A stretch of DNA of 64,000 nucleotides from contig JANXYU010000010.1 in NCBI GenBank assembly GCA_025355855.1, positions 1 through 64,000 on the forward strand, given 5' to 3'. This DNA is from Actinomycetota bacterium. GTDB taxonomy: Bacteria; Actinomycetota; JAHEXW01. Position numbers and translations under genes: made by a program. Under the pieces are notes generated by a model. That model did no database searches and had not been told where the DNA came from. It was given only the letters and a program-made list of their open reading frames with translations. Of the stretch, positions 57,266-64,000 are shown piece by piece (within the stretch, counting starts at the first letter, position 1; every line of letters begins with the position of its first letter).

Positions 57266-57718
57266 CTAGTTACTGGAGACATAGGGTTTAACCCGGGCCA
57301 TACCGGTGACCGTAACGGTAGACATAGGGCGGTTAATAAGACCGCTAAATAGCAGCGGCACTTCCGCCCGACACGTCACCATGACGTGCGTTTTGGTACT
57401 GATGACGGTTACGCCGACAACATGCATCCCTCGAGCTGTGTTTAGATTCTTTTTAATGAATACTTCGACTTCATCGATCGCGACATCGCGCTTCTGGTTA
57501 CCGGTTGCGCTGGCCTCAACCACGTCAATCCGTCGAGCCGTTTCACGCGCCGCAATATCGCAAGCCTTGTAAAGCTCCGCCTTGGAAGCTAATATCCGCC
57601 CAACATCAATGCTTAACCCTAACATCAACAGCAGGACAGGCAAGAATGCGACTACCATAATCGTCACAGATCCTGTTTCTGCCGCCATTAGATAGGTTTT
57701 CTCAGATCTCATCTTCAC
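57266..57718 (-). CDS. TadE/TadG-like pilus assembly protein
   Basis: ETGSVTIMVVAFLPVLLLMLGLSIDVGRILASKAELYKACDIAARETARR. Confidence 0.8.
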   Translation of the reverse strand: MKMRSEKTYLMAAETGSVTIMVVAFLPVLLLMLGLSIDVGRILASKAELYKACDIAARETARRIDVVEASATGNQKRDVAIDEVEVFIKKNLNTARGMHVVGVTVISTKTHVMVTCRAEVPLLFSGLINRPMSTVTVTGMARVKPYVSSN

Positions 57719-57720
57719 GC

Positions 57721-58800
57721 CTAGAATTCAATTTCGCCAACGTCCTGTAACGAGCGCGCGAAAGGTATACTCGGAAGATTTTCAGTCGCCTCGGAATTGT
57801 TGATAGAACGATAACCGTTTATCGGGATATCGCAGTAGAGAGACGCGGTCGAGCCATCTGACGCCGTGAAAACAAAATAGTGGCGGCCCGAGCCGGCATG
57901 GGGATAATAAACCTTGTTCTTGAGAGACACAAGCGTTGACGGGTTCTGCAGACTACGGCTGACGATCTTAATTTGGTCAAGGTCTCGACCGGTATTTGTT
58001 CTTTGAACAATCGCATATTCGTTAACTGAGGCAATCGGTTTACTAAAGGAACCGGTCACAGCTAGCGTCAGATGCGCTTGTTCGTCTTGGCTAGTATGTT
58101 GCTCACCGTCTGAGGTCATAAAATGCCAGCGCGTAAAGACAAAAGGCGGAGCTTTCGAGACCTTCACGGTGCCGTGCAGCGGCTCCGCCCAGTGTCCTTC
58201 CACTATCCAAGCCTGATAGTTTTCCCAATACCCCGATCCTATCCAGACATTTATGATTTGCCATTCGTAATGGGAGGTGTCTTGCCAACCCCAGTAGCCA
58301 TAATCGTGCCTAACCCACCATATGGAACGCCAGCCGGCACCCGGACAATATGTATCTTGGTGGTGAGAATGCGCACCCCACGTCCAATTTGAGTAGCATT
58401 CTAAACCACCGTAATATTGCGGACACCGGCGGTCGGCATATTGATACCACCATCTGCCTCCCCACGCCGGCCAGCCCCATGTTGGATCGCTAACCATCCA
58501 GGCGATTACCGTGTCCTCATGGCTGTTGTCTATCCAGTAGCAGTAACCAGTCGATACCCATGTATATTGACCTCGCTGTTCCCAATGAGAAGTGTCTATC
58601 CACCGTTGTTGGCTCACGTAATGCGACGTGTCGATCCACACTTGTTGACCAAGGCTGTTGCCCGTCAACCAGGCGTCACCCCTTGCTTGTCCGCACAATG
58701 CGAAGAAAATCGCGAAGACAAGAGCGAAGCAAAAAGTAGATCGTATTATGCTATTTATGAATGTTTCATAAAACGGCGTCCGCGTCATCGACTGATTCAT
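57721..58800 (-). CDS. Secreted Trp/Tyr/His-rich repeat protein of unknown function
   Basis: Signal peptide (FCFALVFAIFFALCGQARG), repeats VWIDTSHYVSQQRWIDTSHW...WQDTSHYEW...WIGSGYWENYQAWIVEGHW; start trimmed to MNQSMTRTPF. Confidence 0.75.
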   Translation of the reverse strand: MNQSMTRTPFYETFINSIIRSTFCFALVFAIFFALCGQARGDAWLTGNSLGQQVWIDTSHYVSQQRWIDTSHWEQRGQYTWVSTGYCYWIDNSHEDTVIAWMVSDPTWGWPAWGGRWWYQYADRRCPQYYGGLECYSNWTWGAHSHHQDTYCPGAGWRSIWWVRHDYGYWGWQDTSHYEWQIINVWIGSGYWENYQAWIVEGHWAEPLHGTVKVSKAPPFVFTRWHFMTSDGEQHTSQDEQAHLTLAVTGSFSKPIASVNEYAIVQRTNTGRDLDQIKIVSRSLQNPSTLVSLKNKVYYPHAGSGRHYFVFTASDGSTASLYCDIPINGYRSINNSEATENLPSIPFARSLQDVGEIEF

Positions 58801-58858
58801 GTATGGCGAACAGTTACAGCTTCGAAAGACGCCGACACAACCCAGCCGCACTGATTTT

Positions 58859-59560
58859 TCACCTTGTTGCAGCTATCTGCGTCGCCTTAAATGTCCCATC
58901 AGCTTGCTGCTCACCTAAGACGGTCACTTGGATACCCGCGGTTAGCGTCGAATAATCAGCACTAGATAAAAGCCCACCTGCTGAACCTGACACCATTGGT
59001 GTATCTTTATTAGCCAGTACCGAAATCTGTCTACCGTTCATATCGTCAAGCATGAAACCTGTCCCCAATAACTCTCTGACCTTGCCCGCAACTAATGACT
59101 CGCGCCCGTGATCAACCTCCCTCGCCTGGCCTGCCTTATTTGGTTCAGGTGACACTGTGATTGTGGTGGCAATAATTCTAGTCTTTCGTCCGATTGCTAA
59201 TTTTGCTTCGATTGTAATGATATTGCCTGACTTAATGACTGTCCGAGGCGCCTTCCTAGGTACCATGTCGCCCGTCGGCTCTTGAGTCACGCTTAAATAT
59301 TTAGTACCCGAATCGGTCTCAATGAAATTGCCGGATGCTAACTTTGGTTTTCTGCTAAGTTGGCTTGGATCAATTACCATAACCGAGAGGCCCGTCGTTT
59401 GGACGCTAGACACACGTCCTACCAGCGTCACGGGCGATAATATTTTTAAATCTTGTTCAACCCCTGACGTGTTTTTGATATCTCCGCGCGAACATCCGAC
59501 AGTAAAAACAATCATTAAGCCGACAACGACGCACACATGAATTTGTTTTTGTCTAAACAT
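58859..59560 (-). CDS. Lipoprotein with DUF5666-like beta domain(s)
   Basis: VVVGLMIVFTVGCSRG lipobox; VAGKVRELLGTGFMLDDMNGRQISVLA...QVTVLGEQQADGTFKATQI. Confidence 0.65.
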   Translation of the reverse strand: MFRQKQIHVCVVVGLMIVFTVGCSRGDIKNTSGVEQDLKILSPVTLVGRVSSVQTTGLSVMVIDPSQLSRKPKLASGNFIETDSGTKYLSVTQEPTGDMVPRKAPRTVIKSGNIITIEAKLAIGRKTRIIATTITVSPEPNKAGQAREVDHGRESLVAGKVRELLGTGFMLDDMNGRQISVLANKDTPMVSGSAGGLLSSADYSTLTAGIQVTVLGEQQADGTFKATQIAATR

Positions 59561-59568
59561 TCTTCTCC

Positions 59569-59751
59569 TTATTGGGCGAGCGCATCGATTAGAGACTGCA
59601 AATTGTTCATCAATACACCACGTAGTTGTGGAAGTAACATAATCACGGCTAAGATTATCAGCCCGATCCAAAAAACCTGTTCGGTTATCTCCGAACCAAC
59701 CTCTTCAGCTAATGCTTTTATGGCCTTATTAAAAAGTAGCAACTTTCTCAC
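59569..59751 (-). CDS. Small Flp-pilin-like protein with candidate prepilin peptidase site
   Basis: 60 aa; ...EEVG|SEITEQVFWIGLIILAVIMLL: Gly(-1), Glu(+5), then hydrophobic segment; sits directly upstream of tadC's neighbours. Confidence 0.65.
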   Translation of the reverse strand: MRKLLLFNKAIKALAEEVGSEITEQVFWIGLIILAVIMLLPQLRGVLMNNLQSLIDALAQ

Positions 59752-59757
59752 CTCCTA

Positions 59758-60570
59758 TTACGTAAGATTTTTGAAGTTCATAATTGCGGGTAAAAGATAC
59801 ACCAGCAAAACAGGGGGAATAATGAACAGAAATATCGGCATCAACATAGTGGTCGGCAGACGGTTCGCGCGCTGTTCGAATTGAAGCTGTTGTTTCAGGC
59901 GAACCGAATCCGCTAAAGTGAGGACTGCATCGCTTACTGGCTTTCCTTGTCGCTCTGCTTGCAATACGGTCTCAAGAAACTGTCGTAACTCCGGGGGACC
60001 ACCTTTACTGATTGAGGTGTATGCATCTTCTCGTCGGACACCTGCGGCGGTTGTCGACCTTGCCTTCGCTAGCAGCGTGCCAAGTGCGCCTGGCACTTTC
60101 TCCACGACATAGTCAACTGCTGAATCAAAACTCATGCCAGCCTGCAGGGCCAATGCTATTATTTCCATTATGCCCGGCAGTTCGCAGCTAATATCTCGCG
60201 TCCTTGACCGCGCTCGGCGCTCTAGTCCGATGACGGGCAAGTATGCCCCGCTCACGAGCGCGAGGGCCGCCCAAAGAAAGCGTGCCGGACTACTAGGATT
60301 CAAGAGAATCAAACTAATCGCGAATAGACCGCCAATCACTAATTGGACGTAAAAAACATCCCCCGTGTTTTTTAGAATTGAACCAAGACGGCAAGGTAAG
60401 GGGCTAGCCGCTCGCAATGTTGTGTCTAGAAATGCTTTGTATCGGTCGGGCAAAAAGTACAGGGGCTTTCTGCCGGGCACTCCAATCCATTTTGATGTAG
60501 CCCTTTGGGTAATAATCGACGCCGCTATTCCCGCCGTCAGAGCGCCCAGTATAACGACATATTCACTCAT
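59758..60570 (-). CDS. tadC: Type II secretion system F family protein, TadC-like
   Basis: ELPGIMEIIALALQAGMSFDSAVDYVVEKVPGAL; LQAERQGKPVSDAVLTLADSVR; TM segments. Confidence 0.88.
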   Translation of the reverse strand: MSEYVVILGALTAGIAASIITQRATSKWIGVPGRKPLYFLPDRYKAFLDTTLRAASPLPCRLGSILKNTGDVFYVQLVIGGLFAISLILLNPSSPARFLWAALALVSGAYLPVIGLERRARSRTRDISCELPGIMEIIALALQAGMSFDSAVDYVVEKVPGALGTLLAKARSTTAAGVRREDAYTSISKGGPPELRQFLETVLQAERQGKPVSDAVLTLADSVRLKQQLQFEQRANRLPTTMLMPIFLFIIPPVLLVYLLPAIMNFKNLT

Positions 60571-61406
60571 CGCCGCCCTCCGTCTGGAGCCATAGATGTC
60601 ATTCTGCTTAACACGTAGAAACCTGTGCCTACTGATATCGCCGCATAAACTAGAGCAGCCATGCCCACACTTGTTCTTAGATAGCCGGCATACAGAGGAT
60701 TAAGCGAATAGACAGCAAACAGAAAGCAGATGGGTATGAGCGTCACAAACTTAGCGGTGGTTTTTTGCTGCGCGGCAAGGGCCATAACTTTCTCGGAAGA
60801 CAGAATCCGACTACCAGCCAGCTTTGCCACTCGATCGAGAACGGCGCTTATGTCTGCGCCAGTGGCTCTGCAAACAACGATTGCGTCAACCGCGAAAGTG
60901 AAGATTTTGTCATCGATGCGCCGTGCCGCCGCCTGCAGCGCATCATCAACGCCTCTTCCATGAGCAATTTCTGCCCCAATCAATAAAAGTTGCTGACGCA
61001 TCGGGTCTTCGGTTCTGGTGGCAACTTCAGCTATCGCGTTACTCAACGACGGATTACCATATAAGGCGCAACCTAAACTACTAAGAACCGGTTCCATCTG
61101 CCGTTTCAGTTTTGTCCGACCTCTGGTTTCCATATATCTGCGAATCATCAAAGCGAAGGCTGGAGCGATAATTGAGACTATTATGTTTGTAGCGAGCGGG
61201 TATCCGAGACCTGCTCCGAGGATAAAAACACCTGCGTGTACAGCAAATGAAAGATAGGCGATGGAGATGCTGGTCGTTTGCCGCGTGTTTTTAGTCCTAA
61301 GGGCCAGCTCCTGAAAGTCTCTTTTCTTCTTGTCCTGTCTTGATAAGGCGGCAAGTGCCCCAAAGGTCACCGCCAGGAACACGAGGTAGGCAGTAACCGC
61401 GGTCAT
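60567..61406 (-). CDS. tadB: Type II secretion system F family protein, TadB-like
   Basis: T2SF-like core with TM segments; AVDAIVVCRATGADISAVLDRVAKL; between tadA and tadC. Confidence 0.85.
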   Translation of the reverse strand: MTAVTAYLVFLAVTFGALAALSRQDKKKRDFQELALRTKNTRQTTSISIAYLSFAVHAGVFILGAGLGYPLATNIIVSIIAPAFALMIRRYMETRGRTKLKRQMEPVLSSLGCALYGNPSLSNAIAEVATRTEDPMRQQLLLIGAEIAHGRGVDDALQAAARRIDDKIFTFAVDAIVVCRATGADISAVLDRVAKLAGSRILSSEKVMALAAQQKTTAKFVTLIPICFLFAVYSLNPLYAGYLRTSVGMAALVYAAISVGTGFYVLSRMTSMAPDGGRR

Positions 61407-62575
61407 TCACCCTCCCCACTATATTGAACGTCCAATTGATATTCTTCATCGGTGCCCAAACCAGAAGCCAGCTTGCAAATTTCTACGACTCGCCTGGCCT
61501 TGTAGCGACCACCCTCAAGCTCGATGCCACGAAGAAAAACAACCAAGTCAACAACGCGAGATACTTGGCGTCTTATGGCAGGCAAACTGCTGTTCTGTTT
61601 CGCCATGGCCGCTAGCGTCTCAAGGCGCCAGAGCGCGTCAATAACGCTATTTGCGTGGATCGTGGAAATCGAACCTCTATGGCCGGTGTTTAGCGCATGC
61701 AAAAGATCATATGCAGCCTCGTCTCTCACTTCACCCATTATTAGCCGGTCCGGATTCATTCTCATGGCATTCTTAATAAGGAGACTAAAGGATATTTCGG
61801 TATGGCTTTCAGTATTTCTCGACCTCGTCAATAGGCGACGCACATGCGGTCTATCGATTCGGAGCTCGTAGGTATCTTCCAGCGTTATAATTATTTGGTC
61901 TGGTTCAATCAGCTTGGCGAGGCTGTTAAGCAAGGTCGTTTTGCCTGCCCCAGTGCCGCCGGCGATTATTATGTTGCTCTTACCACGCACCGCTTCGCTC
62001 AGCAACTCAGAGCCGGACGCGGTGATAATTTTTCCGCTGACCCAATCAGATAAAACTAGATCCATGCAGCCAAGTTTTCGAATCGTCACGTAATAGCGAT
62101 CGGCCGCTGGCGGGACTATTATGTGACATCGACTCCCCTCATAAAGATCGCAATCACAGGTTGGATTCATGACATCCACTCGTTTGCCGACTCTAGCTGT
62201 GATCCTATCAATGACTCGAAGAACGTCGTTTACCGACCCAAACCCTTCCTGTACTTTGCGACGCGAGTCCCCGGTTACTATGAAAATGTCGACATCTTCA
62301 ATCAATATGTCCGTGACTTTTTCGTTACGCAGCAATGGTTCAATAGGCCCGAGTCCAAACATATCGTCGGAAACGTACTCTAGTAACGCGCCGTATGTAT
62401 CGTTGCCGCGTCTTCCGGCAAAATCTACAAGTTCGTCGCGTACCGTTTTTTCAGCAATGTTTCTCGACATTGCTTCGTAATTGCCGTCTTCGCCTTCGAA
62501 CGACTCCAGCGCGATTTGCACGCGGTTTTTGATGTGCTTAAGGACCGTCTGTCTATCGTGCGCAAGTGTTCTCAT
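61403..62575 (-). CDS. tadA: CpaF/TadA family secretion ATPase
   Basis: IIAGGTGAGKTTLLNSLA, MNPDRLIMGEVRDEAAYDLLHALNTGHRGSISTIHANS; start trimmed to MRTLAHDRQT. Confidence 0.94.
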   Translation of the reverse strand: MRTLAHDRQTVLKHIKNRVQIALESFEGEDGNYEAMSRNIAEKTVRDELVDFAGRRGNDTYGALLEYVSDDMFGLGPIEPLLRNEKVTDILIEDVDIFIVTGDSRRKVQEGFGSVNDVLRVIDRITARVGKRVDVMNPTCDCDLYEGSRCHIIVPPAADRYYVTIRKLGCMDLVLSDWVSGKIITASGSELLSEAVRGKSNIIIAGGTGAGKTTLLNSLAKLIEPDQIIITLEDTYELRIDRPHVRRLLTRSRNTESHTEISFSLLIKNAMRMNPDRLIMGEVRDEAAYDLLHALNTGHRGSISTIHANSVIDALWRLETLAAMAKQNSSLPAIRRQVSRVVDLVVFLRGIELEGGRYKARRVVEICKLASGLGTDEEYQLDVQYSGEGE

Positions 62576-62585
62576 CGCGGTCCCC

Positions 62586-63224
62586 TCAGTCGTTGACATG
62601 ACCGGCCACGGCGATGCTAATCGACCCTGTATCCAAAGCCTCCGCCAATCGTTCACTTTCAATTTTTGTCACTTTAACCAAAACTCCTTGCATATCTTTT
62701 AAGCCGCCACGTTGCGTATTATAAGTAGTCTTAATTACTTCAACGTTCGCCAGAATCGTTTGGCTTTTGAACGTGTCTTGGCTGGCCTGCGACGGAATAG
62801 CGATAATATTTATCTTTGCGCCTGGGCGAAGAAACCCAGCGAATGCACTTGCATTAGAAATAGGGATAAGAAAAACATATTTGTCTGTTTCTATCGAATT
62901 AGCTCCACCCTTTCTCGTTGTGCCGCTACGAAAGCAATTGGGTGACAAATAATCGCCGGGCATCCTCGTCGTTGAAACAGTCTTACCAATTACTTCATCC
63001 GGCTTGCGAAGTATATTTTTGCCAAGCGTGCTAGAAGGAACGTCAATATTTTCGATCATTGCGGCTGTAACTTTGGATCCGGCCAAAATCGTTGTTCTAG
63101 CCGCAATAACTGTTGTCGTACTAAAAAAGGATTGCAAGATAATTAACGCTACAACCATGGCCGCGAAGCCAGCTAGCGCAGCGTAGGCAAACGTTTGACT
63201 CGGCTTTTGTCCTTTCCTTAGCAT
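62586..63224 (-). CDS. cpaB: CpaB/RcpC-like Flp pilus assembly protein (SAF domain)
   Basis: TM then TTILAGSKVTAAMIENIDVPSSTLGKNILRKPDEVIGKTVSTTRMPGDYL; C-terminal RcpC-like region. Confidence 0.85.
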   Translation of the reverse strand: MLRKGQKPSQTFAYAALAGFAAMVVALIILQSFFSTTTVIAARTTILAGSKVTAAMIENIDVPSSTLGKNILRKPDEVIGKTVSTTRMPGDYLSPNCFRSGTTRKGGANSIETDKYVFLIPISNASAFAGFLRPGAKINIIAIPSQASQDTFKSQTILANVEVIKTTYNTQRGGLKDMQGVLVKVTKIESERLAEALDTGSISIAVAGHVND

Positions 63225-63380: not shown

Positions 63381-63854
63381 TTACTTGCCCAACGACCTTT
63401 CACGCTGTGACACAATGTATTCATCCAAATCGCTTTTTTGGACTCTCCACGACCCGGCGCCGGCACCGATCCTAAACCCAAGCAGGATCTTCTTGTTGAG
63501 CATGTCGTAGACCTGCGCCTCCGAAAACCTTAGCGAGTAGGCAACCTCTGACACAGTCAATAGGCGTTTCGGATCAGCCATCCTGGCTTCTTCCTCGGCC
63601 GCGGCTTTCTCGTGGTAATTCTTGACGTCGTCGGCGTGAATGAACTTACGGCGACCGATGCGACTAGTCCTGAATTCGCCCCGCCGCATCATCTTGCGAA
63701 CCGTGTTTGGCTCCAGTTCCATGATATCGGCAGCTTCTTCCACACTGATATACCCTGATTTGCCAGGTGTCATCGTGCTGCTATGTGATTCTTGCTTGTC
63801 TTCCATCTCGCGAATGAGGCTTCTGAGATCGTCGTTTTTTGTGACTTTCGCCAT
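63381..63854 (-). CDS. Tandem excisionase/MerR-like helix-turn-helix DNA-binding protein
   Basis: Two HTH_17-like units: YISVEEAADIMELEPNTVRKMMRRGEFRTSRIGRRKFIHADDV and LLTVSEVAYSLRFSEAQVYDMLNKKILLGFRIGAGAGSWRVQKSDL; GGAGGTG SD upstream of the ATG at 63854. Confidence 0.85.
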   Translation of the reverse strand: MAKVTKNDDLRSLIREMEDKQESHSSTMTPGKSGYISVEEAADIMELEPNTVRKMMRRGEFRTSRIGRRKFIHADDVKNYHEKAAAEEEARMADPKRLLTVSEVAYSLRFSEAQVYDMLNKKILLGFRIGAGAGSWRVQKSDLDEYIVSQRERSLGK

Positions 63855-64000
63855 TTCGGGCACCTCCTTAACCGGTCATCCCCGCTATCGCGCCACGAAT
63901 TCTTTTAACAATCGTCCTACGCGGTTGGTGGGACACCAAATCTAGCCCAAACAATAGCTTCAAGATATCACTAACTGCCGGATATGTCATTTCACACCAA

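Follow-up and report, generated by a model that had tools for sequence, protein, structure and literature searches.

We found that a gene in the window (the whole stretch of 64,000 nucleotides analysed here) encodes a member of a real, Tad-linked secreted repeat-protein family. The family has no name so far, because no relative above noise was found in Pfam, NCBIfam, PHROG or PDB, and because literature searches for the repeat strings WVDTSHW and WVDTSH found no paper. The initial annotation had likewise failed to recognise the family, and no characterised domain in these four databases matches it. We marginally favour the reading that the protein is a Sec-exported, non-pilin subunit of a Tad (type IVc) pilus in a probably monoderm host, and that it gives the pilus an adhesive surface as an adhesin or tip subunit.

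The protein consists of a signal region, a first repeat block, a Trp/Cys-rich middle, a second repeat block and a C-terminal domain ending in Phe (Table 1). The coordinates in the initial annotation fit the open reading frame, which lies on the minus strand, the strand having been left unstated there. Alternative ATG starts exist at residues 18 and 22, and the start of the N-terminal extension is uncertain. The signal peptide claimed for the protein is consistent with a Sec-type region and an SPase I-like site, both read by eye. In relatives, too, a hydrophobic stretch is followed by A-x-A-like ends (YADADDW, KIFAEEE), and a low-confidence model places a helix at residues 27-53, over this region. 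The C-terminal half is non-repetitive, as had been described; that it is also beta-rich is a prediction at low confidence. Its final Phe is invariant in the aligned family members.

Both repeat blocks are built of WxDTSH/WxSGY units. The motif W[VIQ]x[TSE][SG][HYR] occurs six times in the 164-residue mature N-terminal half, compared with 0.023 expected from composition-preserving shuffles (none of 20,000 shuffles reached six), and WxD[TN]SH occurs four times, compared with 0.00065 expected. The gene has the highest Trp content among the 83 frames of at least 150 aa in the window. The closest relative (G001) is 67% identical in the alignment and other members about 26-34%, and the repeats are conserved in relatives at 67% and at about 27-34% identity. 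Thus, the W/Y/H-rich repeats quoted in the initial annotation are present, at a density far above that given by composition. The three cysteines of the middle, which could possibly form a disulphide, are kept in the 67%-identical relative and missing from the other families aligned; this middle is special to the genus of the window.

Table 1. Coordinates of the repeat gene, its segments, the surrounding Tad locus and two further loci (positions in the window unless a contig or locus is named).
Feature	Position	Strand	Details
WIDTSHY repeat gene	57721..58851	-	376 aa from GTG; family conserved in 24 genomes
Sec-type signal region	58678..58755	-	residues ~33-58, ending CGQARG/DA, SPase I-like site; read by eye
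Repeat block 1	58516..58644	-	residues 70-112; motif W72, W84, W98, W106; spacings 12, 14, 8
Divergent Trp/Cys-rich middle	58291..58515	-	residues 113-187; C143, C152, C169
Repeat block 2	58186..58290	-	residues 188-222; motif W189, W203, W215; spacings 14, 12
Conserved C-terminal domain	57724..58185	-	residues 223-376 (~155 residues); EPLHGxVxVxKxPxFVFTRWH ... PINGxxxIN ... F-COOH
TadG/TadE-like short Tad-domain protein	57266..57718	-	150 aa; Pfam Tad PF13400 9.8e-9
DUF5666-like lipoprotein candidate	58859..59671	-	PF18914 5.1e-5, below Pfam cut-off; lipobox TVGC by eye
Candidate Flp major pilin	59569..59751	-	60 aa; G/SEITE prepilin-like motif with E5, read from sequence
TadC (T2SSF)	59758..60570	-	PF00482 9.8e-15
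TadB (T2SSF)	60567..61406	-	PF00482 3.2e-8
TadA ATPase (T2SSE)	61403..62662	-	PF00437 6.3e-41
CpaB/RcpC	62586..63224	-	PF16976 6.9e-11
Double HTH_17 regulator	63381..63863	-	PF12728 1.1e-19; also in L006 and L007
comM-dprA-MEMO region	window contig 65136-68818 (L009 9136-12818); L006 24-3463; L007 11692-15793		
G343 homologue locus	L053, C99 1-8485		homologue at contig start, then VirB4/TraG-like ATPase, M23 peptidase, YdjM, VirD4/TraD-like, Replic_Relax

We scanned 398 Actinomycetota genomes for the family. A four-sequence profile matched in 26 genomes and a profile of the C-terminal domain (A3) in 24, while a scan of the genome contigs with the single window protein returned one relative. 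The A3 matches reached E-values down to 4e-80 and were single copy in nearly every carrier; one genome (G306) had a second, fragmentary match. The C-terminal domain, which has no match in Pfam, NCBIfam or PDB, always occurred together with the repeats, except where the frame or contig was broken (G276, G222, G255). The family comes from some groundwater actinobacteria. Breaks in or close to the repeat gene are common among the draft contigs (L014, L020, L022, L027, L028 and others), and the family may therefore be under-counted in metagenome assemblies. Searches of plasmids and phages returned only weak Acinetobacter matches over the repeats, in stretches without a listed gene (CP040041.1 370981-371376 and two other Acinetobacter baumannii records; 30% translated match, E = 9e-3). 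They are probably due to chance.

The minus-strand operon of the window runs in the order HTH_17 regulator, CpaB/RcpC, TadA, TadB, TadC, Flp-like frame, DUF5666-like gene, repeat protein and Tad-domain protein. The presence of TadA, split TadB/TadC and CpaB identifies it as a Tad (T4c) locus, and the same order was found in about 10 related loci. The neighbours named in the initial annotation are in place by Pfam matches, a TadE/G-like gene 2 bp downstream of the repeat gene and a DUF5666-like gene upstream, the latter match being below the cut-off. The DUF5666-like neighbour is probably a lipoprotein, because a lipobox is present (TVGC in the window, VSGC in the sister locus L006). Its called start overlaps the Flp-like frame, and the true start is probably internal to the called frame. 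The Flp-like frame matched nothing above noise in Pfam; it has a counterpart in another family (L003 2616-2843). A TadE-like protein carries a G/SATIE prepilin-like site, read by eye. The double HTH_17 protein is conserved within the tad operons of two families. On the same contig beyond the window we read CpaE-like, TadE-like, MEMO-like, DprA, ComM and YraN genes by eye from sequence and order. In three genomes, which belong to two families, the tad operon is directly preceded by comM, dprA and MEMO, and in two of these by yraN as well. Two consecutive PlsY-like acyltransferase frames follow the operon in a sister genome (L006 11766-13035).

A second locus order was CpaE-CpaB-ParA-TadA-TadB-TadC-TadE-(U243)-repeat protein-TadG; the window version has the HTH gene and lacks ParA. 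The U243 gene of the f5 loci showed no detectable relation to the DUF5666-like neighbour.

The association of the repeat family with Tad genes is strong. The repeat gene directly adjoins them in 23 of 24 carriers from four families; within the limits of each contig, a TadG-like gene lies downstream and/or TadE/TadC upstream. The possibility that homologues lie mostly away from Tad loci, which the initial annotation had raised against its own proposal, was thus not borne out, and its suggestion of a surface component of the pilus system is well supported by this adjacency together with the lack of a match to any characterised domain. Its more specific proposals, a pilus-tip adhesin or a carbohydrate binder, are still inferred.

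We also investigated co-occurrence with tadA, as had been suggested there, in family f5. The repeat gene was found in 16 of 22 genomes with a close TadA (E ≤ 1e-120) and in three of 13 without (Fisher’s test, p = 0.006, relatedness ignored), which leaves six genomes with TadA only, three with the repeat gene only and ten with neither. Each of the six genomes that have only TadA is cut off before or right at the slot: between 40 and 2,677 bp of contig are left downstream of TadA, and in intact loci the repeat gene is reached about 2.4-3.2 kb after TadA. Only G201, with 2,677 bp left, could show the start of the repeat gene. Of the three genomes with the repeat gene alone, two carry it close to the start of a contig or on a contig of 2.5 kb, and the third (G255) has a broken repeat copy and a TadA fragment of 167 aa. 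Every Tad locus of the richest family that is assembled through the slot contains the repeat gene.

Two broken loci deserve mention. In G255 (L054, C4 17524-18300) one frame runs on from the end of the repeat protein into the TadG-like gene, which is probably a frameshift and not a true fusion. In G276 (family f67; L055, C36 9901-10846) a C-terminal remnant stands with a TadG-like gene and no other tad gene was detected on the contig; this locus has possibly decayed.

The spacing of the repeats follows a simple rule. For the motif W[VIQ]x[TSEDN][SG][HYRF], with successive spacings of up to 40 residues counted, all 101 spacings were even (6, 8, 10, 12, 14, 20, 24, 26, 28, 34 and 38 residues). 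Trp-Trp pairs within 16 residues in 14 f5 members were even in 253 cases and odd in one, compared with 145:145 for TadA aromatics, 426:368 for tyrosines of the same repeats and 197:246 for aromatics of the C-terminal domain; these pooled counts come from related sequences and are not independent. Values from single proteins are safer, and successive Trp gaps were even in 22 of 23 (p = 3e-6), 26 of 27 (p = 2e-7) and 20 of 24 (p = 8e-4). The divergent middle makes the parity weaker over the whole N-terminal half of the window protein (30 even, 15 odd), and none of the five short spacings between its motifs is odd.

It may be explained that side chains alternate along a beta-strand and that hairpins change in length by one residue per strand, so that only even steps result. 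The even spacing would therefore fit a ladder of beta-hairpins in which differences in length come as whole cross-strand pairs. AlphaFold models of the window protein and one relative gave a pLDDT of 41.5 at full length and 54 for a fragment. The fragment model has strands at 24-27/30-33 and 39-42/45-48 (fragment numbering) around the motifs with pLDDT ~60-74, which weakly suggests two hairpins at the motifs of block 1. We had considered the motif as a 3-residue turn with W0 and W6 facing each other, and dropped it since the fragment model shows 2-residue turns. With such turns W0 and W6 would point to opposite sides, so that a single face made up of all the Trp is uncertain.

No secretin (PF00263) or Omp85 match was found in the genome carrying the window, which is 91% complete, while among 14 control genomes the secretin profile detected matches in 6 and the Omp85 profile in 7. 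Therefore, the host is probably monoderm. The RcpA secretin, a feature of diderm Tad systems, was accordingly not found in this genome, as expected of a monoderm one.

Under the reading that we marginally favour, the C-terminal beta domain would dock the protein to the pilus machinery, the likeliest partners being the co-expressed short TadE/TadG-like minor pilins. The Trp-rich repeats would form a ladder of short beta-hairpins presenting indole rings outward, and polysaccharide, another cell, mineral or organic matter are candidate targets. The Tad-domain proteins of repeat-carrying loci are short (~150 aa) and have no grafted adhesive module. Because such a protein of 150 residues has no room for one, and because no other sizeable exported protein keeps its place in the cluster from family to family, the repeat protein is suggested to be the contact module in separate form. 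It is also possible that the repeat protein guides or assembles the pilus.

A cell-wall component of the pilus machine is an unlikely alternative. The aromatic repeats would attach to peptidoglycan or wall glycans and thereby keep the protein at the base of the pilus as an anchor or conduit, like choline-binding hairpin repeats, whose modules are beta-hairpin solenoids (PMC4471590). The likely monoderm host has no secretin match, so the pilus must cross the wall unaided, and the association with the Tad locus looks obligatory. However, no Pfam cell-wall-binding repeat matched in 17 members, and the number of repeats varies 2-3 fold among relatives, a variation that suits a segment facing outward better than a fixed conduit.

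The comM-dprA-MEMO genes bear on another reading, in which the protein is a DNA-capture subunit of a Flp/Tad-type transformation pilus. The window-order operon stands directly after these genes in all three genomes mentioned above (the two with yraN being of two families), and ComEC is present; together they may mark a transformation pilus. Transformation of Micrococcus luteus is known to need Tad pili (PMC4322843). However, no comM or dprA match flanked the f5 loci examined, and the mature repeat half is acidic (pI 5.3 in the window, pI 4.6 in L003), unlike a DNA binder. We therefore consider this role improbable.

Slightly less probable still is that the protein is not part of the pilus and is a released substrate of the Tad apparatus, like TcpF of the TCP pilus. 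It would be soluble after signal cleavage and has an invariant C-terminal Phe; having neither a pilin N-terminus nor an anchor, it could be released. Yet a monoderm can release a Sec substrate without any filament, and the gene is embedded between pilin-like genes. Finally, the compositional bias of the repeat half might indicate low-complexity aromatic sequence without specific function, which is highly improbable given the parity rule, the conserved C-terminal domain, the invariant residues and the fixed gene position down to about 27% identity.

The one carrier of 24 without Tad adjacency is G343 (family f6, contamination 5%), where the homologue lies beside conjugation genes on what looks like a conjugative or integrative element. 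This homologue is itself one of the rows of the C-terminal profile, which it matches with E = 4.9e-54, and it was first found with a profile not containing it (E = 1.6e-27). The repeat homologue was absent from four other genomes of the same order, and misbinning of the contig is possible. A conjugation apparatus likewise depends on contact, and in plasmid TP114 pilus adhesins select recipients (PMC9045228); the setting of this homologue thus speaks for the adhesive reading. A bolder extension of the pilus-subunit reading, which we hold as doubtful, is that a new Trp-zipper-like ladder of beta-hairpins (with Trp-Trp distances almost always even) and a dedicated docking domain form an exchangeable contact module, which the Tad pilus of deep-branching actinobacteria would share with an unrelated surface machine, a conjugative element.

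Some known systems resemble the repeat family. The WXXGXW repeat (PF12779) is superficially alike in its Trp/Gly repeats, but its aromatic positions are five residues apart, compared with six in the W-x3-[SG]-x-[WY] unit here. Choline-/glucan-binding repeats (PF01473), which form a beta-hairpin solenoid (PMC4471590), are likewise short, aromatic-rich and hairpin-like, whereas the repeat family has a different motif and the even-spacing rule. Neither PF12779 nor PF01473 matched at E ≤ 1 in 17 members. Neither Pfam nor NCBIfam contains the protein family defined here, and its putative Trp-hairpin repeat is a natural one that lends itself to structural study.

Other type IV filaments have non-pilin tip effectors, PilC/PilY1 among them (PMC10191384), and these are likewise secreted proteins encoded with pilus genes. 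However, PilY1 belongs to diderm T4a pili and is large and modular, being described with a vWA domain (PMC12607857), and no Pfam match to a vWA domain or a C-terminal beta-propeller was found in the repeat family. In other Tad systems, contact or tip function has been proposed for a large TadG (PMC12075869) or a vWA minor pilin (PMC12607857). These TadG/KilN-type and CpaL proteins are also encoded with tadE in the tad locus, and they are pilins with large C-terminal modules or vWA. On the repeat-protein chain, in contrast, no Tad, TadE or pilin domain matched in 17 members; here the proposed contact module is a separate Sec-type protein with a short TadG-like partner. The repeat protein is thus a concrete candidate for target contact by Tad pili without a large TadG.
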